This document shows, in pieces, positions 3,707 through 59,360 of a DNA stretch of 64,000 nucleotides. Every line of letters begins with the position of its first letter. Position 1 is the first letter of the stretch. The stretch spans positions 1 to 64,000 of the forward strand of contig JBBELK010000372.1 of the NCBI GenBank assembly GCA_037783545.1, written 5' to 3'. The stretch comes from Henricia sp. BOLD:AAB3569. Its lineage: Eukaryota > Echinodermata > Asteroidea > Spinulosida > Echinasteridae. The notes beneath the pieces are model-generated. The model did not search any database. It was not told the origin of the DNA and was given only the letters and a program-made list of their open reading frames with translations. The translations under genes were made by a program, and so were the position numbers.

Positions 3707-4421
3707 GTGAGCGCTGGATATCTGAGCGATGTATTGATTAATGGCAGATAGTCATAATCACCCATAGCTGCCAGTCACTGCGTGCCAGTCAGTCATTCGA
3801 CCGGTGATCGAGGGGAGAGTTTGAGGCCAGAGTCGGGGTTGGGATGCGTCCGAGGCGTGGTAGTGCGGATCTGAACTCGCCTTGTCACGGCTAGCTAGCT
3901 GCCCATCCAGTTGACCTCGCGCAGTCATCGAGTGTCTATATACGCGGCTCGCGACCGGCACTGGACGGCCGGATACGGACCGGGGACTCTCTTGCTCCGA
4001 CAGTCAGTGATTATGTGGACTGACTCGCGCTGTGTCCGTTCGTGTCTCTCGCCTCACAGTTAGTGATCGGACGCCCCGATGATGAGACTTAGCTTTCCAT
4101 TATTATAGTAGGTTTATTGTGCCATGGTGATAGATATAATTCGTTTTCCGTCGTCTTTGGTGAAGTGAAGCTTGTATTGTCACCGAGGAGTTTTTGCCGT
4201 TTGTAGCATACACGCGCCGAGACCATATAATTCTGGTTAACACGCCTTTCCGTTTTAAACCCGTTTCTGAGATTTTGCGCCCTTCAAGCGTACTGATGCT
4301 GTTTCGGCAATGAATTTCATACCATTTCGGTCGGCAAAACACAATAAACGCATTTGGAATAAACTCTGGTTACTTTTTCCTGGTTTTTAATATTTTCTGT
4401 ATCTCTTGTTTTTGTCTACAG
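3707..4421 (+). other. Predicted phase-0 intron of the Sp8/9-like gene
   Basis: 715 bp from GTGAGC to a pyrimidine-rich acceptor (TTGTTTTTGTCTACAG). The 5' half (about 3760-4080) is unusually GC-rich and contains TATATA at 3937-3942, so it could double as an alternative promoter producing transcripts that start at the ATG 4455. No other coding potential is seen. Confidence 0.5.
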
Positions 4422-5840
4422 GAACAGCCACGTCTGGGAACCACACCACTAGCCATGCTAGCTGCTACCTGCAATAAGATTGGTACCAAGACCCCGCCCC
4501 CACCCATCGCTGATCCCCCTAGCCCCAAGACTGGCAAAAGTTTTCTCCCCTTTAAGAAGAACTCTTCCATGTCGGATCTTCCGTCGGCTCTGACAGAGTC
4601 CAGGATGCCGTCCGTGCCAGTTTCAGCCAACGGGTTTACTCCTTACTCCATCTCGCCCGCCGCGGCTATCCACAACTCGTCCCTAACCAGCACCTCGGCC
4701 GCCGCGGCGGCTTACAACGAGATGCTCATACACGGTAGGACTTCTCTAAAATCTAGCCTACCCTGGACTTCTACGGACTCTGCGTCCCAGCCAGCAATCA
4801 TCCACAAACTCCACGGAACCACGGCGGATCATTTAGTGTGCCCCGGTATGCCCCTGTGCCCTCATCCGTACGAGTCCTGGCTGAAAGCGTCCACCGCGGC
4901 CGCGGCCAGTATTGCCCGGGACTCCGGCTCGGCTTCGACCCTCAGCTGGTGGGAGCTGCGCGGTGGATCGAGCTGGCTGGACCTTCACCCGAGCACGGCC
5001 GTAGCACTTAGCTCTCAGTTTCCCAAATATTCCAGCTACGCCGCGGAGTGTGCGGCGTTGAACGCGACACACCCCGTCTTCAACTCCCCAAGCGGTCATC
5101 CATTTTTGCCGGCTCCTCCACTATTCACACACGAGAGTCTTGGATCCTTAGTAGCCCCGGCTGGGTATGATCTGATGAGTCTTTCCCATATGCGATCGCC
5201 CTTCCTAACGCCGAGTGGTTTCAGCGGACTGTCGCTTTCGTCTCGGGCCAATCGTCGCTACACCGGACGAGCGACCTGCGACTGCCCGAACTGCCAGGAG
5301 AACGAACGGCTAGCCGCGGCCGGCCAGCCCATCCGCAAGAAGAACGTCCACACATGCCACATACCGGGATGCGGTAAGATTTACGGCAAGACGTCCCATC
5401 TAAAGGCTCACTTAAGATGGCACACGGGCGAACGCCCCTTTGTGTGTAACTGGTTATTCTGTGGTAAACGGTTCACGCGTTCGGACGAGCTACAACGCCA
5501 TCTGCGAACGCACACGGGTGAGAAAAGGTTCGCCTGTCCTACGTGCAACAAACGTTTCATGAGGAGTGACCACCTCAGTAAACATATCAAAACTCACACT
5601 GGTACAACGAGCAGCAGCGGCGGCACAAGCACCAGCAGCACCAGCAGCACCAGCAGCAGCACAAGTTGCGGCAGTTCGTCCACCGGCAAGAAAACTACGG
5701 TTACCGCAAGCGGAAGCGAGTCTGAAGCCAGCCCGGGTGACCCGGGCAGCGAGCGTAACCCGTCTCCGCTAACAGCAAAGACCGCCAATTCCACCTCGAC
5801 CAGAAACCAACACACCGAGGTAAAAATGATAACGTCTTAG
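4422..5840 (+). CDS. Sp8/9: Sp6-9 group (Sp8/Sp9-like) zinc-finger transcription factor, main coding exon
   Basis: Nuclear DNA-binding regulator that, by family, binds GC/GT boxes and acts in ectoderm, neural and appendage patterning, often downstream of Wnt. Counting from the ATG at 4455 the protein is 461 residues. It has an N-terminal Sp-box-like motif [13 protein letters not shown], which straddles that ATG; HPYESW at 137-142 and a Trp-rich stretch at 164-177, both typical of Sp6-9; a Buttonhead box CDCPNC at 275-280; and three C2H2 fingers: C301/C306/H319/H323, C331/C336/H349/H353 and C361/C364/H377/H381. Base-contact sequences [16 protein letters not shown] and RSDHLSKH are intact. Ala runs lie at 82-86 and 148-152, and a Ser/Thr-rich tail from 383. 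The acceptor TTTGTCTACAG ends at 4421. From there 11 codons ([11 protein letters not shown]) run in frame into the ATG and match vertebrate SP8/SP9 N-termini, so 4455 is probably an internal or alternative start. Sp5 and Klf are excluded by the HPYESW and Trp motifs. The family assignment is secure; orthology to SP8 versus SP9 is not resolvable, since one gene usually stands for the group in invertebrates. Confidence 0.96.
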
Positions 5841-7424: not shown

Positions 7425-10337
7425 ACCCCCCGTAGTGGATGTCTGCAAATTATCTTACCGTTACCCCCCCGTCTTAAATGATATATTTTCTAAAAGCAAG
7501 ACACATCTTCGTTTGAGTTTTCTTTTTTTACACGAGAACATGTTCGTTTCTGCCCAAGATTTTTGAGCATTTACTAAAGAAGGACCGATTATGCTTTTCC
7601 ATTTATTTCTTTAAATCAACGCGACAACATTTACAAAACAAAACAATTATCCATTATGTTCAAAGTGAGAAGAGAGAAAAAGACAACGTGAGAGTGAGAG
7701 ATTTTGCGAGAGACAACGAGAAAGCAAACTACTACGCGTAGGATTATTCTAAAGTGCAAGAAAAATAGATGTAAACTCATGGTACTTTTGTTTCTGTTAA
7801 CTTGTTGACTATAGTAGGCCTATCCTGTAGCGTACTACCTCATTCTCAGGTATCGCACAAAACACGAGTTATGTCATCTGTGTTTCAATTTATTAAAATT
7901 ATTTGTCCTCGACCATGTAAAACAAAACACCGTATAACAAAATGCACACAATTATAATTTTGATTAACAACTCTTAAGAGTTTAGTATTATAAGAGAAAA
8001 CTTAATTTAGTCCACACTGATGGTGATGTTCAGGGGATGGATTTTTTTATCCCCGTTTCCTAGATTAAAATGAACTTAAAAATAAAATGAAACTGTAAAA
8101 AAAAACTTTCCAAAATTTTGACTTTTTTTTTCTTCCAAAATTTATATCAGTGTGAATATTTTGAATGAGCAGATAATGTCAACCTTGCCATTGTCACACA
8201 ATATGTGTACAATCGAATAATTTTATAAACTTAGCATGGGTGTTTTCGCGTCATAACCAGAGACATGTTTTTGACTTAAATACTGGTTTTAACCAATGAA
8301 GGACTGCGTTTGCCGACCGCCAAAGCTGACCATTGGTCGAATCCGTAGTGACGTCAGAAACCTGTTTCTGCTTGTGATCGCGAAAACAGGCCCCTACACT
8401 CGTGATTTATTAATTCAGACAAAGTCAACAGTCTGGCGTCTGGACTTAAAATGACACTAATACAATTGGACACATTGAAGTAACTGGACCAGACTTTTCG
8501 GCTCGCTAATATGGCTGTCTTAAAATACCGATTCAAACATAAAGGCTTTTTTCAATGCTTATGATTGTCAGGTTTTCACGTGTTTATCATTTCATGAATG
8601 TAGAATGGTGCTTTATTATTAAAAATGAAAGAAAAACTCGACACAAAGACATCGTAAGATGGCCGCTTTGGCCATCTTACGACCCCAAAATAGTCTGGTT
8701 CCGGTGGCTTCAATGACATTCAATGATATTCCATGTGTATATTACGAGTCTAAATTTAGTTTATTGTGATGCCTGTGAGCTTACTTCACGAGAAAAAGCT
8801 TTGCGAAATGTTTACTTGTGGGAAAAAAGGTCACATTTTTAATTGTTTAATACAATTATGTTGTATAAGTGACAAATTGTTCGAGGGACGTATCTTGCTC
8901 TTTAAAAATTCATTGCCATTTTTAACCATAATTACTGATTTTATAAATATGACATATTGTCAATCTAAAGTGACGGGGCTTTGGTATATTGGAATTACAT
9001 CTTTTTATTTTTCAATGATTTTTTTAAAGATTGGGAGAACAGCTTCTCACTGTTTCAGATTTTATATTTTCCGGGACGTCGGGATTATGGCAAAAGGTAT
9101 TTTATAGTATAAAAAACGTACAAAAAGTACGAAAAATGTTGTATTCAATCGAAGAGGTTCATGAATATTGGGCGTGGTTTTGGGAGATGGGTGTAGGCTT
9201 TAGCCTGCAGAGTTAATAAAACAATGTTTTTTTCTCTTCACTCTTTGTTCATTTTTGTCTAGCCCTTCTCAGAAATGTCGGGTCTAAAACCGTGCCGAGG
9301 AAAATGGCGATTTCATTTAATATCCCCTTGGACGTATATTCTATTTGTTAACCTGAATGTTCTGTTATAATAACTGAATGTTATATAATAACCTCCCTTA
9401 TTGTTTATAAAAATGTTCTGGAATCATTCAAAATTGGTAAAACTTGGAACATGAACAAGCTTATATTAAACATGTGTTACAAGCTTTCCTGTTTGCCACA
9501 AGATTTTGGCCTTTCAGTATTTAATATCCAACCTTTTTTTCTTCCTCTGCGACAGTCGTAACAAACAAGCACGGCAAACCTCAAAAGACAGACATTTCCC
9601 AACTTCAAAATATGGCATTTGAAAAAAAAAATAAAAGCGTTAACTTGCAACAAATGTATTCATGCATCGTCTTCAAGCGAGTAAAAACGGTAGACGCGTT
9701 TTCATGTTTAAATTGGCCACTGCTCTGCAACATTGTAGTTTTAGATTATTAAGTCAATTATGATTCGCACAAAGTATTCACAGCCTTTAAAGTATATTGT
9801 CAGCGCTCGGTTTCCTCTTGAAAAATAGTTATAATTAAAAATTGATATTTTCTTTATTTTTTGAGGTTATGTGCTTCTTAATAAGAGATTGCTAAAATAT
9901 AAACCCACTTCCTAAAACTCATGGAACACAAGGTTGTCCCGAAAAATGTCAAAAACTCCAGTTTTTGTTCTGTAACAAATCGGAAAAAAAACCGGGAAAA
10001 AAATCCATTTTAAAAACTCAAATTTATTTAAAGTTAAGTCTGCCGCGAGCACAAATAATGCACCTTTAAGCTGATGATTTTATTTTTCATTCTTTTATCT
10101 TTTTCTTTATTTCTTTGGAATATGATTTATCAGACGAGACATATTATATTGTTGCGCATACTCGTCGCCTGTCCCACAGGTGTGTACATATTTAAATGTA
10201 AGAGTGTATAATTACCATAAGTATAGAGTGTGGGATATAATTATTGATATTATAAATGTTGAATAAAATGATTGTCCTATAGTGTAAACACTTGTGTCCG
10301 AGTTTCATGTGTGGTCTGGTTACTCAGATGACTATTA
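7425..10337. other. AT-rich intergenic DNA
   Basis: No gene or RNA recognised. Contains one perfect hairpin (8652-8682) and AATAAA-like words. Frames at 8766-9107 and 9031-9216 are low-complexity, AT-driven and show no family features. Confidence 0.6.
8652..8682. repeat. Perfect 13-bp-arm hairpin
   Basis: TCGTAAGATGGCC, a 5-base loop (GCTTT), then the exact reverse complement. Both arms carry an AAGATGGCC YY1-like word. It may be the collapsed remnant of a MITE. Confidence 0.8.
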
Positions 10338-10577
10338 CACTGCAAAAACTGTGGTGTTATATTAACACCAGTGGTGTTGTCTTATATAGATACCAACCCT
10401 GGTGTTAAAATTTAACACCATAGGTGTTAGTTTTGATTCGTGCACTTGGAATAAATGCATTTTTATTAACACCCTAAGTGTTAAAACTAATACTTGTGGT
10501 GTTAAAACTTAACACCAGGCTTGGTATCCATATAAGACAACACCACTGGTGTTAATTTAACACCAGTTTTTGCAATG
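10338..10577. mobile_element. Palindromic MITE C1, copy 1 (uninterrupted)
   Basis: 240 bp with ends CACTGCAAAAACTG and CAGTTTTTGCAATG. It is almost entirely a palindrome made of repeated GGTGTTA/TAACACC words and TATAGATACCAA / TTGGTATC arms. A second copy at 35021-36189 is interrupted by two other insertions, and this intact copy supplies the empty-site sequence for one of them. Confidence 0.85.
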
Positions 10578-16720: not shown

Positions 16721-16816
16721 GTTCAAGAAGTCACATTTCTTTGGTAATGATTATAGGGGAAGAACATCAATCACATTCTGTTTACAAAATAAATTAAAAT
16801 GAGAGACAAATCGTAA

Positions 16817-16890
16817 GGGCCTTATCGGGATTCGAACCCGAGACCTCTGACTCACCGGGCAGACGTTTTACCAGCTGAGCTAGTTTAAAG
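16817..16890 (-). pseudogene. tRNA-like sequence (T1), copy 1
   Basis: On the minus strand: CTCAGCTGGTAAAAC, then TCTG...CAGA, then CTCGGGTTCGAATCCCGA and TAAGGCCC. The T-arm is perfect, but the D-stem is broken and the anticodon loop has 10 bases, so no functional tRNA. A closely related copy at 24738-24811 has the same defective anticodon arm, pointing to a spreading tRNA-derived repeat. Confidence 0.6.
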
Positions 16891-18914: not shown

Positions 18915-19324
18915 CATAAATTTTGGGTGATACTATATACCGGAAAACACCGGAAAACACCGGAAAATACCGGAAAACACCGGAAAACTCACCGGAAAAC
19001 ACCGGAAAACATACTAAATACCGGAAAACACTAAATACCGGAAAACACCGAAAAACACCGGAAAACATACTAAATACCGGAAAACACACTAAATACCGGA
19101 AAACACCGGAAAACATACTAAATACCGGAAAACACACTAAATACCGGAAAACACCCGAAAGCACTTAATAACACCACCCCCACTACCTGCAGAAAACACC
19201 ATAAAATACTGTTTTCCGGTGTTTTCCGGTATTTAGTATGTTTTCCGGTATTTAGTATGTTTTCCGGTGTTTTCTGGTGTTTTCCGGTGTTTTCCGGTAA
19301 ATAGTACTACCGTAAATTTTGATG
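18915..19324. mobile_element. Fold-back element built from inverted CCGGAAAACA satellite arrays
   Basis: About 410 bp. The left array (18939-19160) repeats ACCGGAAAACA, interspersed with TACTAAAT, some twenty times. The right array (19211-19300) is the same satellite in reverse complement. About 50 bp of non-repeat DNA separates them. Outer ends (CATAAATTTTGGGTGATACT on the left, and CCGTAAATTTTGATG on the right) are also an imperfect inverted pair. Architecture resembles fold-back transposons, whose long terminal repeats consist of short tandem units. Confidence 0.75.
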
Positions 19325-23889: not shown

Positions 23890-25780
23890 CAAGCCGTGAT
23901 TCCAAATTACCCGTCGTGTTTTACTACTTGCAAATTCCGCACGGTTACTAGGTGACGTCATTACACCGAGCATTCCGCCAGATACCCTGCCGCGAGCTCG
24001 GGTGGTGGTGGCGGCTGCCACCGGGGCAAAAAGAACGCTCTGGTGTAAGTTGGTGTTACACAGTGTTATATAGCTTCTCGAAGGCCTCTAATGACACCCG
24101 AAAACCACGATAAAACTATATCTAAAGCCATTCGCTACAAAGGGACGTTTAGAACGCGACGTCCGGATGGTCGAGTCGAGAACACATTTCTATATACTGT
24201 CTATCTCATTGCTCACCATTGTCAAAGGTGTGTATTATATTGGCAATACGCAATACAGGCTGGCTTCACTCGATATATATTCCTCTTCTCTTACAAATTT
24301 TCGTTTTTGGGTATTATGAGCGAATTGCACATCAATAGATCTGTGGCTTTGTATTCCATCAAAAGGATGGAGCAAGTGTTGTTTAAAGCACATTCTGGAC
24401 GGAGGTACCCCGCGCTACACACGCTATTATAACCTAAATATACATGTAAACCCCTGCAGCTGTGACAGAATTTACCAGCACAGCACACCATACAGAATAC
24501 GCTGTCTATCATGCAAATGTTGCGACTGAAATAAGATTAACTTTTTGAGACGAAAATGAGGTCCCGATGATCAAAAACGCAAAATAAGACATTTTGGAAA
24601 AAACAATTGTCCCATTCTACGTCTGGCCCATCTTTCTATATATCTTACATCAGTTTCTGAACGCAACAGCTGGCATGGTGCATAATCACTATTGGATTTA
24701 AACAACAAAACTTGGGATGAGAGAAACATCGTATAAGGGCCTTATCGGGATTCGAACCCGAGGCCTCTGACTCATCGGGCAGATACGCTCTACCAGCTGA
24801 GCTGTAAGGCAAAGTTGTATACTCCTTCGGTTTCTGAGGCACTTTTTATAGCCCCAAATCGCCATAACTCAGCCAGAATTACCTTTAGGAGCTTTGCGCA
24901 GGAATCCTTCTTGCTTGAATCAGCAACTCCAGCATGTAAGTTCAATGATCTTATAACCACTCGGCCATATGTATTCTTCTCGGCAAAACATTTCTGGAAC
25001 CGACTCGGTCGCTTTTGATATATCTCGAAAGACCATAAAACAGTCGTCATGAATTTATCGGAGAGATAGTCAACTCCCCGAGACGCCCAAGTCGCGTATA
25101 ACCACCATCAGTTCTTACAGGTCACGGGCCCCGGAGCAAGTTGGGGTATAAACCACCCCTCATTCCCCCCAGTAGCCCCTGGCGGTGATCTCTCGGTGGA
25201 TTTGGGCCGTGCATCCTGGTTTAATCCCCGGTCAGCAATCAGCCTAAATTGGCCGGCCGCAGTGGTGGTCAGGCATGGTCTTGTTCGACCCAAATATCGT
25301 TGACCCTGTTTCTGTTCGTGCCTTGTCATGTGGCGCAATAAAGGTGACCGCAATTAGCGTTGGTCCATGACTGTGATGCAATGGGTTTCAGCTTCAGTCT
25401 CGTGCATGAACCTGCGGCCAGGTCGCTTTATGTTGGTCATCTGGTCCCGATGAAGACAGAACTCGGATCCATCTGAATAATGCTTCGATGGGACGACAAG
25501 AGAGCCGATCCTGTGTGATTATACCTTCAGAAACAGAGAGAAGAACTATTGAATCGCGAACTGTCTTACAGGTCTTTCGGTTTTCGAGAAAATATAGTGA
25601 AAACTCGACAAGTCAAAATATGCTTATTCAAAGACCATACTATAGCTAACAGACCCCTTTTCCCCGTTAAATGTATAGCAAACCACGCACAGCTATCCTG
25701 AGGCTTAAAGAGGTTTTTAAACAGGATGCAATTTGGTTGTTCATTGAACAAAATAATAAGTAAACTTTTCTAGTTAAAAG
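23890..25780. other. Intergenic DNA
   Basis: No gene recognised. A CpG-rich patch (23930-24060) and a mixed-composition patch (25105-25480) with frames on both strands show no domains. It contains the tRNA-like sequence at 24738-24811. Confidence 0.5.
24738..24811 (-). pseudogene. tRNA-like sequence (T1), copy 2
   Basis: Minus strand: acceptor GCCTTA/TAAGGC, intact D-arm GCTCAGCTGGTAGAGC and intact T-arm CTCGGGTTCGAATCCCGA. The region between is two bases too long and gives TCTG(10-base loop)CAGA with no U33, so not a standard tRNA. About 90% like the 16817-16890 copy. tRNA-derived repeat or recent pseudogene. Confidence 0.6.
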
Positions 25781-32400: not shown

Positions 32401-35020
32401 TTCAAGTTCCAAACCACCGACCTTTTAGCATGTGATAAATTAAGAATATTGTTTGTTCATTTGGTCTAAAAACAAAAACGGCAGTAGAACAGAAGTTCTG
32501 GTCACTTGGAGACACTTGAGAAAGATATTATGTCATTCAAAATCTAGAAATTGCGGTTGAAATTTTTTTCAACAATCGTCAGATAATTTTAATATTGATA
32601 AAAACAAGTAACCACTGGCACCCGGCAAAAGGTTTTAATTGTATAGAAATCGGGTTTATGTATAGGCCTACTCCTAATACCTTAAAACAAATAATGTTTA
32701 AACGAACAGAGCGAAAAGAAACAATGATGGGCCTTTGGAGATGTAATATTAAAAAGGAATACTAATTTAAAATAAGTTTTAGGATATTTTACACAAAATC
32801 AAGCAATTAAAATATAATAATTTTATTTCGCATTTCAGATTGTCTTTGAAATATTAATTTTAACAAAGTTGTTAAAATTAAGTTAATTTTGCCACGTTAT
32901 GAATTCGATGGGATGCTCATTAAACACTTCAGCATAACAAGCACAAACTCCACTGTTGAGTTGTGAATATTTAAAACAAAATCAATAAAATTCGAAATGC
33001 CTTGTCTAGAAATCCGACAGATTGCTCAAAATGTTTGTTTGTGGGGTGCTCAGCATCCTATTTTCAACATTTCCGTGCATCACGGCTTCTTATTTTGTCA
33101 GATTGAAGAACGGCCATACTTCGTGGCGTACCGATTTAATTAATATGAATAATCGTGCAACGGTCTTGGTCGATTGTAAAGAACGCTGGTCATTGAACCC
33201 CGATGCCCCGTACCGTATACCGGGAGCGATGCGTGCATGCCCCAAATCACCGACCGCGGCCACGGCTCAACCGCGCACGGCGCTCAATCGATACCGGAGT
33301 TATGCCTTACTTGCCCCGTTGAAATTTTGCCTCCGTCCGCTGGTCAAGCACAATTACCAAGACAAGACGAGGCACGAGTCTAATTAATTAAAAAAGGGGG
33401 ACCAGGACTGGACATTGAGAAGGGGCGGATCGATGCCGGCTAAATGGGGGCGCCCGATGGCCGACATGGTAGGGGAACTTGGAGAAAATGGCAATGGCCT
33501 TAGTCGAGGTCACTGACTGGGCTTAGAAGGATCCCTAAAACGTGTGTCTAATGCAAAAAGTGAAAATCACTCTTTTTATAGCCGTATAATTGACAACTCG
33601 TTCTCGAGTGGACATTTCATACTCTCTTAGAGTGTTTTTCACACTGGAAAGGAGTTAAAAACAAATTAAGTGAAGTTTCCATTCGAAAATGAGCTGTCCC
33701 ATATATAAAATAAAGGCTTTTTACATTTTAGAGATAAGAATTATGATACGAATGATAGATTTTCAAATTCTGTGGAAAGTTTGACTCGTAAATTCACGTG
33801 ACATTTGTCTTGTTTTATGAAATAAAATGGGTGCAGGCATATAACTCTTCAATTTATTGATTCAAAATTCTATGTCGTACTATATTTTTACGGAGTTCTT
33901 AATTATGAAGTTTTGTTAACCTCTCGTTTTTGGTTGAACCATATCCCTTTGATCATGAGCATTGTAATTCACTACATGCCAATTCTTCGTCGGGTCTCCC
34001 ACATAGTATTTAGTTTGACTTTTCTTTCTATAAAGCATAAAAAATATAATTAAGTAAAACACTATATAGTGTGGCCTTTTTCGATGGTTTTCAATTGTTT
34101 TATAAAACAAAATATTGCGCGTTTATAACAAAATGTTTCTTCTGCATTTTGCTAAGTCATAATAAACTAACAAAATGGTGCATGGAATTTATTGAGAGAA
34201 ATTACACACTCTACATAATATTTTTGTAAATTGTACTTTTACAACCACAAAACTTGGAACAAAACTGTACTTGTCCTTAACAAAAATGAAATATTTTGTA
34301 CATATACGGTCAGATACACTCAACGCGTTTGAAATACTTTACTCTTTTCTTTTCCCCAAAGAATTATAGAAAGAATCCCGCCTGTCCATTTCGCTTCATC
34401 ATTTTCGCGCACAAAAAATAAGCTATCTCGTGATGCTGTGAACAAATTTATGATTTGTTTGACCAAAAGGAGATATCGTAATTTACGGGTTAAATGGAAA
34501 TAGAATGTCCGCATAAATCGTCTCAAGTATCCCTCGTCAGTGGAATGGTAAACCTTGTCAGTTAAATTACCCGCTAAAGTGTCAAGAATCATTTATCTTG
34601 TTCACAATTTATCCGAGTCAATTTTAAGCATTTTTTGGGTCGTCATTTGGGGACGATAGCCAAAAATAGGGGCGGGCACTGCCTTGAAAATAGAAAGGGG
34701 CACGTTACTGAAAGAGGATGAAATATTGCCCTGGGGAAAATGGCTCAACGATTTTACTTTAGCCTCAAATATTTATCAATATTAAGCAATATAATTCTGA
34801 TTGGAAAGTGTATTGTACATATCAGAAGTAGAGGGTCCCACAAAAAAGAGGAACTATATGTTGTCAGCAATACGCGTTTGCGAACACTACGCATACACGT
34901 GAGAAACGCTTAAACTTGTTTATACTGACGTTTACAATTTTTCATAATTTAACAGTGAATTAAAGCGTTTAGCGTTTGACTTCTTAAACGCATTCCATTG
35001 TACGTGTTTAAAAGTGTCTG
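29481..35020. other. Repeat-poor intergenic DNA with a CpG-rich block
   Basis: About 5.5 kb almost free of recognisable repeats. The CpG-rich 30190-31180 segment has frames on both strands (for example 30336-30578, 30323-30607), with no domains or convincing splice framework. A TCF/LEF-type word CCTTTGATC is at 33952-33960. Likely cis-regulatory DNA for the nearby developmental gene (inference). Confidence 0.4.
33541..33660. repeat. Small inverted-repeat repeat, shared with 55917-56025
   Basis: Ordered words GTGAAAATCACTCTTTTTATAG, GTGGACATTT, CTCTTAGAGTG and TTTTTCAC match 55917-56025. Several CACTCTTTT/AAAAGAGTG mirror pairs. Probably a MITE related to the CACTG-ended group. Confidence 0.45.
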
Positions 35021-35077
35021 CACTGCAAAAACTGGTGTTAAATTAACACCAGTGGTGTTGTCATATAGATGTCTGGG

Positions 35078-35182
35078 GCGCGTTCAATAGCGCAATACGT
35101 ACGCCGGTATTGGGTATTTTCCTATACCTTCACTGTTGAAGGTATTGTCGGTATGCATACGTATTGCGCTATTGAACGCGCA
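35078..35182. mobile_element. GGCGCGTTCAATAGCGC hairpin MITE nested in C1
   Basis: GCGCGTTCAATAGCGCAATA on the left is matched by its exact complement on the right. The 105-bp element is nearly all palindrome. CTGG on both sides is a possible short target duplication. Confidence 0.85.
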
Positions 35183-35335
35183 CCTGGTGTTAGGTTTTAT
35201 CACACAAGTCTGCATTAGTTTTAACACCTATAGGGTGTTAAAAATAATGCATTTATTCCAATTGAGGAATCACCCATGGTGTTAAATTTCAACACCAGAC
35301 TTGGTATCTATATAATACAACACCACTGATGTTAA

Positions 35336-36161
35336 AGGAACACACCGGCTTTGTTGGGCTATTTTGGGCTCGAAATAGACCCATACATTATTCTGAAGCG
35401 CCTTCGAGAGTAAATTAGATATATCCTGAAATAACGCCGTCAAATTTGGCCGTTTTTGAGCACTTCTGAAAAATTCAAGGTCACGTGACTTTTCGGAACC
35501 AAATTCTGGTTCCGAAAAGTCACGTGGTCTTGTGAGTTAGTTGTATTTCCAGCCGTATAAAAGTTTGTTACTGCAGAACTGCACCAAATTCAACTCTGAT
35601 TCCCCCCAATATTTATAAGTAATTAACAAAAGAGAGACTATTTATACAGGTATGAAACAAAGTTAAACATAAGTATGAAAATTCGAACATAATTGTTTGT
35701 TTCGAGAGTCCGGAGAACGGGAGCGAGCGCGTGCTACGGCAGGCTACCGTGGAGTATAGGATATTTGTCCCGCGCAGCACGGCAAATAGCCTGAGTGCAC
35801 ACACACACATATGTGTTGCTTCGGTGTACGTTCGTGAAGAAAAAACATGATGCCAACTCCTCAAAAGAAAACGGAAATTCCTATTCGGTCGTCAAGCTGT
35901 CCAGTGAAATCGTGAGCAGAAAATTTGAGATATCCTGAGCAGGAGAAGAGCGAATCGTTTGTGACAAAGTCGTGAGGCTCGTGCGTAGTTGCAACGGCTG
36001 GTAAAGCGTATAACCTGTCTTTTGGCCGTTTTTGTTAATTTTGCACTTCTTTAGTAAATTACAGAATATTTTGATGATCTTTTTTCACAACGACCATCAA
36101 AAAAGTATTGTCAATGCTGCTACATCACTAAATCATGTAAACAGTAGGCCAGTGTGTACCG
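35336..36161 (+). mobile_element. TTAA-flanked element P1, copy 1, nested in C1
   Basis: 826 bp bounded by TTAA at 35332-35335 and 36162-36165. Ends AGGAACACACCGGC and CCAGTGTGTACC are inverted. Contains a perfect 20-bp-arm palindrome (35482-35501 and 35507-35526) centred on CACGTG arms, followed by a GTATAAAAG TATA-like box at about 35553. No transposase frame. TTAA target use suggests a piggyBac-type transposase mobilises it (inference). Confidence 0.88.
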
Positions 36162-36189
36162 TTAATTTAACACCGCAGTTTTTGCAGTG

Positions 36190-38185
36190 TGATGGAAATG
36201 TGGCAGTTAGACATAAACACATTATTCAACACGTTTTGAAAGTTTGGTCCTAAAAATGAATGTCGTCCAATAATAAACGCTGTATTTACATAATGTACGT
36301 ATACCAAAGAGAAAGCTACAAAATAGGTCCAGGGTTCCCTAGACGCGGCAAGGACACTTTGTGGATCTATATTGTCACATCATTTATATATGAAAACCGG
36401 CCCTCTGCCATGGCCGCCGGTGCAGAGGGTCTATATTGGAATGGTTTGCTCGTAAAATGCAGCGATGTGTGTTGCCAGGGTTAAAGCACGATAGCACGCA
36501 CACGCGTGAACGTACGTTCATCCTCGATCTCATATGTATGACCATCGACATATAATAGCGAACGATTCTCCAAAACTGCAATAATGTAAAGGAGGTGTCT
36601 GGTTTCTGGTTTCATCTGGAGCAAAATCATGGTACTAGACAACAAGGAACCACATGTTTTTGTTTTTGCTTTTTCATACATCTTTGAACAAATCATCTTC
36701 TGAAAAAATGACAGCTACTGTCATCTTGTACATGTATAATAAAATATCACCTTTAATAAGCTATATTTCGGCATTTATACCTATGTGTTGAATGATACGC
36801 GCATTGCATGATATGGTCATTTAGTATGCATGATGTTGATTTGCACGTCTCAAAAAGCCCGTGCACAAACCACAGTCAAATTTGCATCAATTATTCAATT
36901 TCTTTAGGATATCGTTATAATGACATCGGAAAAACATCCCCGCAGAGCTCTTCATTTGCCGGCGGAGACTGATTCCCAGTTGAGATGAAACTGTATCTTC
37001 CAAATGAACGAGCTTATTATCAGGAATTGCGGAGTTTCATCCGTTGTCTGGGGACGTCCCAAACCCCAGAGTCGACACCTCTCCTGCAAACGATATTGTT
37101 TTCTTTATCGCTGAACCTCCCCCGCTTCGCACCCCTATAACGGGGAAGTTTATCACCGGGAGTACGCACACACCACACTCGGTGCGGCTAGCGAGCCCGG
37201 CCATGGGTCGCACCGGGGGATCATAGGCATCGGCTCCCGGTAAATTACGCCATGGTTCGGGTTGCTGCCACTCGGGGATTGGGCCCGGTGTCTGGCCCTT
37301 CCGTACACCGACACCCGATAGGACCAACCGCATTATTCGCACGAACCAGAGAGACCGCGATTTTTCCCCGGGAAGATGAAATTACTGCTCGGGATGCGCA
37401 ATGCAGCGAGTCAATGTTTTCACTGGTTTCCCAAAGGGGAGATGGAAAAATACTGGGGTGATTAGGCCCGGGCGATAATGCGACTATGAGGCGATTTTAA
37501 TATGTAATCTAATGCTAATCCTATTTGTAATTACCTCCAACGATAATGTAAGTTGACCAATCCTTACTTACAACAGGCATACGATCCTTTCATCCTTGTG
37601 AATTTTAATCTGCGGGACATTTTTATATAGTACCTTACACATGACAATACTATAAAAATCTGTTCGCAACAACACTGCGATCCGAAAATGAAGAAAAAAA
37701 CTCCCTTAAAAAATTATAAAAGAATGCCGATTGCAGAGACGGTGCAACAGACCCTTTATACACGGCGGCCATCTTGGGGGCAATCACATTGTCATGCACC
37801 GAGCGTCATGCATGATCTATTTGTCAGAACACTGGGGGAAACCTACAAGGCGTTAAAATCGGGCTTTGTATAGCTCATCTTGCGGAGCATCTTCCCGTTG
37901 TGGCATAGCGGCTGGAGTTTCAAAGTACGGTTAAAAATAGGAGAGGTTGAGAGATGTAACATATTTATCGGTCAGTAACGTGTATATGAACACTCTTGTG
38001 GCACGGCTGACCGCACCAGCCTCCGTAAGACCCGCTGAGGCAGGGTGCGCCACTCTGTCTGTAGTGAGCCCCTGAGCTCCTGCCATTCAAGAGCTGTTTG
38101 AGAGACGCGCGGCTCTTGAGGTCAGCTCATCCCACGCAGGTTTCAATGACGTTAAAAACGCAACATAATGGGTTTTCTGACAGCC
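36190..38185. other. Intergenic DNA with a CpG-rich block
   Basis: The 37030-37460 block is GC-rich with frames on both strands (37037-37342 minus, 37252-37461 plus) but no recognisable domain. An M3 fragment lies at 37747-37824. Otherwise AT-rich and unassigned. Confidence 0.4.
37747..37824. mobile_element. MITE M3, deletion derivative (reversed)
   Basis: ACAGACCCTTTATACACGGC, GGCCATCTTGGGGGCA, then TCACATTGTCATGCACCGAG and GTCATGCATGAT correspond to one end plus the inner word of M3 at 44105-44250, in reverse. The other end is missing. Confidence 0.65.
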
Positions 38186-41730: not shown

Positions 41731-42525
41731 AGGGACACACCGGCTTTGTTGGGCTATTTTGGGCTCGAAATAGACCCATGCATGATTCTGGAGGTCCTTC
41801 TGAAATAGACCGAAGAGAACCTGAAAAGAAACCACAAAATGTGGCCGTTTTTGAGAATTTTTCAAAATATCAAGGTCACGTGATTTATCGGAACCAGATT
41901 CTGATTCCGATAAATCACGTGGTCTTGGAGTTAGTTTTATTTCCAGCCGTAGAAACCTGCGCAAAGTGCGATTTGCTTTTGTTATTCGTGCATGGTTGGT
42001 TTCTCTTCTTGTTGGAAAATAATGTCCTACGAACACTATGTACATACCGTATTTTCCAATTTGTACACAAATCTGCCAGCAGATTTCTAAGAAGGGTTTC
42101 TGGGTGTTGATACAGACGAGAGAATCTCTCAGATTTTCGCGTCTTCGCTTCGCGGCGATAAATAATATCCGAAGAAAAAACAGCTAACTATTGAGGGCGC
42201 TAAAGACGCCAAAACGTTGCGTTCGAGTTGCTTCCTAGAGTCAGCGCTGACCTGGGGGATCATGATGAGTCAGGGAAAACAAGGGAACGAGGTTAAACAC
42301 GTGTCGACCCATATCGAACGCCACTTTTATTTACAAACACATGATACATAATACATCGTGACGACTGGTACAGCGTATAGCCCAACATTTGTCTCTTTTG
42401 TTAATTTTAAACATTTCTAGTTAATTACGTGACATTCTGATAATTTGTTTTCACAACGACCATCGAAAAATTATTGTGAACGATGCTAGATGGCTACATT
42501 ATAAACAGTAAGCCAGTGTGTCCCT
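41731..42525 (+). mobile_element. TTAA-flanked element P1, copy 2
   Basis: 795 bp bounded by TTAA at 41727-41730 and 42526-42529. Ends AGGGACACACCGGCTT and AAGCCAGTGTGTCCCT. The internal palindrome at 41877-41898 / 41900-41921 has 21 of 22 positions paired. The TATA-like box of copies 1 and 3 is lost (GTAGAAAC). Confidence 0.9.
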
Positions 42526-45544: not shown

Positions 45545-46804
45545 CACTGTAAAAACGGTTGTTTAAACGTTTTAAACAATCGGGGTGGTTCGTGTGCCCT
45601 GCTTACAGGAACACACCGGCGCACTGTTTACATCATTGGCACTAATTTGTTGATGGTCCTTGTGAAAAAAGATCGTCAAAATGTCCCGTAATTAACTTTT
45701 AAAAAGCTTAAAATTAACAAAAAGGGTCAATAGTCGGGTTATAGCTTTACCAGCCGTTCATTATCGCGCGAGCCTCACGACTTTGTCGCAAACGATTCGC
45801 TCTTCTCTTGGCAGATTTTGCTTTGGATATCTCATTTTCTGCCGATGATTTCACTGGACAGCCCGGACCACTGAATAGGTTTTTCCGTTTTCTTTGGAGG
45901 AGCTGATATTTATGGTTTGTCTTTATGAACGTATATACCACTGGAGCAACCGGCTGTTGTGACAGTTCCGCGTGGAGCTAGAGTAGGTGTACAGACTAAA
46001 AGACCTAATGACGAAATACACCCGGCGGTCTGGCTGCACGAACCACGACACTGTACCGGTCGCAGTGTGTGTGTGCCACGGGGCTAAATGTCACATTCAC
46101 CCGTACACTGTTCACGGTGGAACTCGCTTCGGTTCTTCGGACTTTTTGAGTCAAAATGTTACGTTCGATATTTCATAGTTATGTTTAACTTTGTTTCATA
46201 ACCTGAATAAATAGTCTCTTTTGTCAAATACTCATAAATATTTTGAAAAAAAAATCAGAGCTGAATTTGATGCAGTACTGCAGTAATAAACTTTCATATA
46301 TACGGCTGGAAATAAAACTAACTCCAAGAACACGTGATTTATCCGAACCAGAAATCTGGTTTAGATAAATCAAGTGATCTAGATTTTTTGAAAAATGCCC
46401 TAAAACCGCAAAATTTGGTGGTTTCTTTTCAGGTTCTCTTCAGTCTATTTCGGAAAGACCTTCAGAATCTTGTATGGGTCTATTTCGAGCCCAAAATAGC
46501 CCAACAAAGCCGGTGTGTATTTTTAAACAACTTGTGAATATTTAAACATGGCACATGAATTACAACCCCGTATGTTTTGAAGACAGGTGACATAAGGCCT
46601 TTTGATTTGTTTTTGAAAGTCTGTGAAAGTCTATTTTGTTACTAAAATAGATAATATTGATGGGAATCGTTTCCTTTTAGTTACATTTTCTTTACAAATC
46701 AAAAAAAAGATCAAATTTCGAAAAAATGCGAAAATTGAGCTAAAGTGAATACGGTACCTCGCATTTTCTAGTTTACACCGTCACTAAACCGTTTTTCTAC
46801 AGTG
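45545..46804. mobile_element. CACTGTAAAAACGG-ended element carrying a nested P1 copy
   Basis: Left end CACTGTAAAAACGGTT; right end AACCGTTTTTCTACAGTG. The P1 copy at 45607-46522 takes up most of the length. The remaining host DNA is about 340 bp of AT-rich sequence with TTTAAAC words. Confidence 0.65.
45607..46522 (-). mobile_element. TTAA element P1, copy 3 (reversed, diverged)
   Basis: Ends AGGAACACACCGGC and GCCGGTGTGTATT; target site TTAC on the left (decayed TTAA) and TTAA on the right (46523-46526). Palindrome at about 46331-46377 with several mismatches, plus a TATATA box in the position of the copy-1 TATA. 916 bp, the longest of the three. Confidence 0.82.
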
Positions 46805-59185: not shown

Positions 59186-59360
59186 TCGTCCTAAAACCAC
59201 TTCGCCCTGAACCACGGCCTGTGCACGAAGTGGTTTTAGGACGAGGTGGCATTTGGGCGAGGTAGTGTTTGGACGAAGTAATTTGGGGTGAAATGGCACT
59301 TGGGCAAAGTGGTTTGGGGGCGAAATTGCACTTGGGCGAAATGGTTTTGGGGTGAATTGG
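59186..59360 (+). repeat. Degenerate tandem array of TTNGGGCGAARTGG units
   Basis: About ten imperfect units such as GGACGAAGTAATTTGGGGTG and GGGCGAAATGGTTTTGGGG on the plus strand. At least one CTAAAACCACTTCGCCC unit runs in the opposite orientation at the left edge, giving a partial fold-back. Same core as the array at 3031-3073. Confidence 0.8.

Follow-up and report, generated by a model that had tools for sequence, protein, structure and literature searches.

The arms of a short palindrome inside P1, a 0.8-0.9 kb non-autonomous DNA transposon, differ between types of the element at paired sites. As pairing is a property of the types whereas individual copies decay one arm at a time, the most likely origin of this covariation is in source elements, from which their descendants inherited it.

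P1 copies, ends, and insertion sites

The palindromes of all three copies in the window (the whole stretch of 64,000 nucleotides analyzed) sit inside P1, about 150 bp from its left end. The features are as follows.

35336..36161, + strand: P1 copy 1, type A, 826 bp (ends, empty site, three-copy alignment, genomic copies)
35332..35335 (left) and 36162-36165 (right), unstranded: TTAA target duplication of copy 1 (empty-site comparison)
35336..35385, + strand: left 50 bp of copy 1 (TIR plus subterminal stretch), near-identical across the three window copies
35476..35532, core 35482-35526, + strand: palindrome of copy 1, arms 20/20 paired (folding, pairing count)
41731..42525, + strand: P1 copy 2, type B, 795 bp, flanked by TTAA left and right (ends, three-copy alignment)
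41871..41927, core 41877-41921, + strand: palindrome of copy 2, one arm mismatch
45607..46520, - strand: P1 copy 3, type C, 914 bp, flanked by TTAA and GTAA (ends, alignment)
46331..46376, - strand: palindrome core of copy 3, three arm mismatches, with a type-C right arm at site 14

Copy 1 is inserted in another palindromic repeat, a relative of which (10337-10577) serves as a visible empty site. At the point matching the insertion the uninterrupted relative reads GTTAATATAAC, and TTAA flanks P1 on both sides. The host repeat (35018-35331 and 36166-36190) is itself palindromic and seems to carry a further palindromic insert at about 35074-35178. The interior of P1 is largely common to copies 1 and 3; copy 2 matches both only near the two ends. 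The first 50 columns are no better conserved than the remainder (departures of 0.074 among 75 genomic copies of types other than A). With fixed search strings over loci L001 to L090, a few of which overlap, TTAA stands before 40 of the 41 left ends found and after 81 of the 90 right ends. The termini are AGGGA or AGGAA where undecayed: copy 2 has AGGGA at both ends, and AGGAA is found on the left of copy 1 and on the right of copy 3. The opposite ends of these two copies (right in copy 1, left in copy 3) depart from AGGRR.

A TTAA 4-bp duplication with 5'-RR ... YY-3' ends marks the Kolobok superfamily (PMC9587614), and TTAA with AGGRR termini marks the T2-MITE (PMC6004289). P1 shows the TTAA duplication and both the RR...YY and AGGRR termini, and by target and termini it is classed as a family of non-autonomous Kolobok/T2-like DNA transposons. 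PiggyBac was rejected as a candidate: it shares TTAA, but the termini of P1 are RR/YY (AG...CT in copy 2), a contrast drawn in PMC9587614. The T2-MITE of Xenopus, of the Kolobok superfamily, resembles P1 in its TTAA, its AGGRR termini, its lack of autonomy, and its amplification in subfamilies, whereas the main text of PMC6004289 mentions neither palindromes nor subterminal features, and an internal covarying hairpin was not seen there. Our literature search, which did not extend to Repbase, returned no paper on this P1 element or joining Kolobok, TTAA, MITE, and palindromes. The interest of P1 lies in its surviving series of paired types.

Within the window, nhmmer found no further P1 left end above threshold. 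Exact left-end strings had no match in viral contigs or GTDB genomes, and copy 1 had none among phages or plasmids by blastn, as expected of an animal repeat. The window was treated as animal DNA on the basis of the Sp/KLF-like zinc-finger frame that it contains.

Genomic copies

The source genome (740.7 Mb, 2,104 contigs) was searched with copies 1, 2, and 3, giving 1,253, 2,399, and 1,874 first-look candidates, respectively; 40 per query were scored. Loci L001 to L030, chosen as best matches when the query included the palindrome, carry identical palindromes in 30 of 30 cases; as the palindrome was in the query, this identity is uninformative on pairing. A left-end query without the palindrome returned 40 places, 27 of them new and fetched, and at 7 of these 27 there is no alignable palindrome. 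Twelve further listed places were fetched as well. One degenerate core pattern, in which sites 8 and 11 may be any letter in either arm, matches 1,478 places in the genome.

Two contigs carry a P1 array with ~8.3-kb spacing, three copies per contig (L051 to L053 on C1246, L056 to L058 on C383), probably duplicated or allelic. Near position 1712 of L002, two P1 copies lie head to head at one junction, starting at query bases 37 and 242.

The palindrome in the window copies

The letters and coordinates of the palindromes in a preliminary description of this DNA proved correct on direct check. In element orientation, arm mismatches number 0 of 20 pairs in copy 1, 1 of 21 in copy 2, and 3 of 21 in copy 3. 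The outer palindrome letters of copy 1 are CAAGGT/GTCTTG, with G.T and T.G mismatches. Folded as RNA, the palindromes of copies 1 to 3 reach -42.1, -36.9, and -27.7 kcal/mol, with z scores of -9.9, -9.7, and -7.1 (200 shuffles each). Of the seven short-loop hairpins listed in the window, the copy 1 hairpin comes first and the copy 2 hairpin third, in a ranking made without a shuffle control. No Rfam family overlaps the hairpin at the gathering threshold.

The paired differences first described between copies 1 and 2 are real, at site 8 (C-G in copy 1, T-A in copy 2) and site 11 (T-A in copy 1, A-T in copy 2); besides these there is one unpaired stem change. Under random placement the paired differences have a P of ~0.002. 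In a neutral three-copy simulation, at least two paired sites arise with a frequency of 0.015, falling to 0.0006 when so few arm mismatches are also required. Copy 3 had been taken for partly decayed. It does have its three arm mismatches, but rather than a decayed copy 2 it represents a third paired type, as its right arm and its relatives indicate (TCCG / CGGA at site 14); in its left arm CCG reads CTA, as CpG decay would produce.

Paired types across the genome

A covariation test over genomic copies shows that the paired changes extend beyond the window and to a third site. The test used 27 aligned copies (25 distinct) from L001 to L060 and the window, leaving out L002 to L030, the 8.3-kb array repeats, and L031, which is copy 2. 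The score is 0.047, against 0.032 (SD 0.004) in shuffles, and 0 of 500 shuffles reach it; the shuffle control leaves relatedness in, and shared descent makes the association over copies look stronger. Sliding the partner arm lowers the score. Three pairs are changed on both sides in these copies, a number reached by 18 of the 500 shuffles.

Among 126 copies (111 distinct, the sample being partly near-identical type A), the left letter and the complement of the right letter are T/T in 88 and C/C in 34 at site 8, A/A in 85 and T/T in 35 at site 11, and G/G in 59 and C/C in 23 at site 14. Sites 8 and 11 had been recognized from the window; site 14, the third covarying stem site, had been missed. 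Each of the remaining 17 core sites has a single paired state with one-sided departures only.

At least four types, C (copy 3), B (copy 2), D, and A (copy 1), can be told apart by their paired states. A hand count of 100 listed matches among the 1,478 gave 91 of type A and 6 of type B, the other 3 having a mismatch at site 8. Hybrids with a type-A left arm and a type-B right arm in the site 8/11 pattern have 0 matches. For type D there are 10 matches, spread over 7 contigs; one contig holds four of these, as an apparently duplicated pair. In type D, site 11 is changed and site 8 is not, so that one paired change separates it from B and another from A. Given this in-between type, a simultaneous change at sites 8 and 11 is not required, and separate changes are suggested. 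We infer, with no outgroup, the order C to B to D to A. One copy, L072, has the type-B left and the type-D right letter at site 11 and is thus mismatched there; as a single copy, it may reflect a private change.

A pattern that leaves site 14 open yields 283 matches, with fully symmetric centres counted twice. By hand count, 98 distinct places listed comprise 75 paired (37 G-C, 38 C-G) and 23 mismatched (12 G.G, 11 C.C), a left-right association with an odds ratio of 10.7 that is inflated by descent. Mismatched forms being this widespread, perfect pairing seems not to be required for transposition. All four site-14 letter combinations occur with a one-base centre, and when centre length is considered along with the two arm letters, seven of the eight combinations are present (hand count); the occurrence of all four points to exchange between copies or repeated mutation. 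Two copies, L120 and L121, have the hairpin centre AGAATCT, the reverse complement of the usual AGATTCT; this is one-letter evidence for a centre inversion, and could alternatively be a point change.

Decay of resident copies

The preliminary description proposed that the hairpin is maintained, and held that many unpaired changes in the arms would speak against this. Among resident copies such changes are what we find. From a tree built on flanks only, for 105 distinct copies (30 of type A; 21 were dropped as duplicate, short, or gapped), parsimony counts 126 private changes (fewer than three descendants) arm by arm, 79 left and 47 right, and 25 shared changes. Only 4 of the 126 private changes form same-branch pairs, two in number, which lie on single-copy branches and may be tree noise; same-branch paired changes number five in all, at sites 8, 11, and 14. 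As most private changes are one-armed, resident copies decay without regard to pairing, and zero arm mismatches of 20 are seen in only 13 of 75 non-A copies. Maintenance therefore does not hold for dispersed copies; what stands is pairing as a property of the types, and thus of the sources.

Some mismatches are widespread. The outer G.T and T.G persist in 108 and 94 of 126 copies, and an unpaired A.C at site 21, the type-A form, occurs in 33 of the 126.

The two arms do not decay alike. In the 75 non-A copies, the left arm departs at 72 and the right at 27 of 1,275 letters (P = 5e-6), and the right arm, at 0.021, departs less than the left arm or the flank; in 16 flank-selected copies the arms are alike (16 and 13 of 272). 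Palindrome and flank conservation in the three window copies are 0.867/0.811, 0.800/0.789, and 0.889/0.878, so that the palindrome is hardly above the flank. However, the flank is uneven on the copy 1 branch, with 1 of 60 positions changed in the first 60 columns, 22 of 86 in columns 60-146, and 1 of 34 in the block after the palindrome. The proposal that the palindrome simply evolves like its flank is qualified by this unevenness and by the right arm, the least departing part.

A TATA-like string and E-box letters

A TATA-like string reported downstream of the palindrome in copies 1 and 3 is indeed present. By type, 31 of 35 type-A copies have it, most of these copies being near-identical best hits, against 6 of 91 others, and from these counts it appears to be mainly a type-A feature. 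It may act as a promoter in type A, and a family-wide promoter role is not supported by this distribution. The CpG letters of the left CACGTG have departed at 27 of 150 positions and those of the right at 4 of 150 (75 non-A copies); the 16 flank-selected copies go in the same direction, with 6 and 1 of 32.

Origin of the paired changes

In the explanation that we prefer, paired changes would arise in a few transposing sources and be copied into their descendants. A mutation in one arm of a source would be copied to the other arm by template switching during DNA synthesis (quasi-palindrome correction), and exchange between copies may have added the mismatched site-14 forms. We give this combination of source-element origin and arm-to-arm copying about an even chance. 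Template switching is slightly favoured because it can rewrite an arm in one step, needs no function, and fits swaps without a wobble step: the interchanges A-T/T-A and C-G/G-C account for two of the three paired changes, and no G-U step joins such states. It has been proposed to make and repair RNA stems, its role in their maintenance being called less clear (PMC8794818), and arm-matching mutations in yeast are generally attributed to it (PMC3820800). The hairpins of PMC8794818 resemble that of P1 in paired stem changes, mismatched intermediates, and possible centre inversion, but are RNA genes with reconstructed ancestors, whereas P1 is a transposon whose hairpin forms survive as genomic copies. 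Similarly, the quasi-palindrome mutations of PMC3820800 extend the identity of imperfect arms, in an experimental yeast mutation assay rather than in an evolutionary record such as that of P1.

Several observations count against arm copying. Long tracts should have erased the outer G.T and T.G mismatches, both of which persist, and the copying is deduced, no event having been witnessed directly. An origin of the site 8 and 11 changes in one tract was dropped once type D was found, which removes the one-tract footprint that had favoured template switching. No indication of arm copying is seen in two other palindromic families of the window, a badly aligned copy excepted, although these controls are weak, their palindromes being longer and less perfect than that of P1. 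In one family, none of the changed sites among three copies is paired and 38 are of other kinds; the three comparisons with its poorly aligned fourth copy each show 2 paired sites, alongside 36, 41, and 42 others. A second family has 0 paired and 36 other changed sites.

Selection on the sources could instead keep the arms symmetric, through a protein binding both arms (a transposase, or a bHLH-type factor on CACGTG) or through a cruciform or transcribed hairpin needed for transposition, a reading that we consider possible though somewhat less probable. The three paired sites and the paired in-between type D are consistent with it, as are the 17 of 20 core pairs without a second paired state, the rarity of mismatches at sites 8 and 11 (3 among the 100 matches listed), and the right arm's low departure relative to left arm and flank in non-A copies. 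The right outer letters also fit, being TCC, TTC, and GTC in their inferred order, the last two of which would pair as RNA wobbles at one or both places. Yet mismatched site-14 forms are common (23 among the 98 places listed), the site-21 mismatch A.C accompanies type A, which is the most frequent type among those listed, an alignable palindrome is absent at 7 of 27 flank-selected places, and the window palindromes are hardly more conserved than their flank, uneven as that flank is. The more specific idea that the hairpin is a working part of transposition, as a cruciform or paired site recognized by the transposase or as a hairpin RNA made by the source, is doubtful.

Ectopic recombination or conversion between types B and C might have reshuffled the arms, with pairing mostly a matter of whole-palindrome inheritance. 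The near-equal counts of G.G (12) and C.C (11) among the 98 places listed are as reciprocal exchange predicts, and the seven of eight combinations of arm letters and centre length agree, but exchange leaves the origin of the second paired state unexplained and the left-A/right-B hybrid has no matches; as the main cause it is improbable. Chance double substitutions in sources, noticed through the selective eye of a reader, would account for there being only three paired sites, with an association inflated by shared descent. Against such coincidence stand the value of 0.0006 for the window copies in the neutral simulation, the covariation score that no shuffle of the 27 copies attains (under a control that keeps relatedness), and the later appearance of a third paired site and of type D, which make chance unlikely; we regard it as the least credible reading.

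Template switching and selection bear on a general question, whether stems become and stay perfect by mutation bias or by selection. More than 1,000 fossil P1 copies, with mismatched forms and stepwise paired types, could separate the two, as dead copies show the mutation process alone and the succession of sources shows what kept amplifying. If the hairpin does work in transposition, P1 would be a DNA transposon with RNA-like stepwise compensatory evolution, its intermediates preserved as dead copies.

Other features of the window

At 59186-59244, outside any P1 copy, lies a further hairpin, whose perfect arms of 19 bp enclose a 21-nt loop. A pair of tRNA-like repeats, perhaps SINE heads, is found at 16799-16881 and 24717-24811, the second of which reaches the Rfam tRNA threshold. 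An array of short ACCGGAAAAC-like units at 18935-19167 is followed by an inverted array at 19210-19299. The open frame at 4314-5840 encodes Sp/KLF-like C2H2 zinc fingers, with matches to C2H2 and KLF chains.
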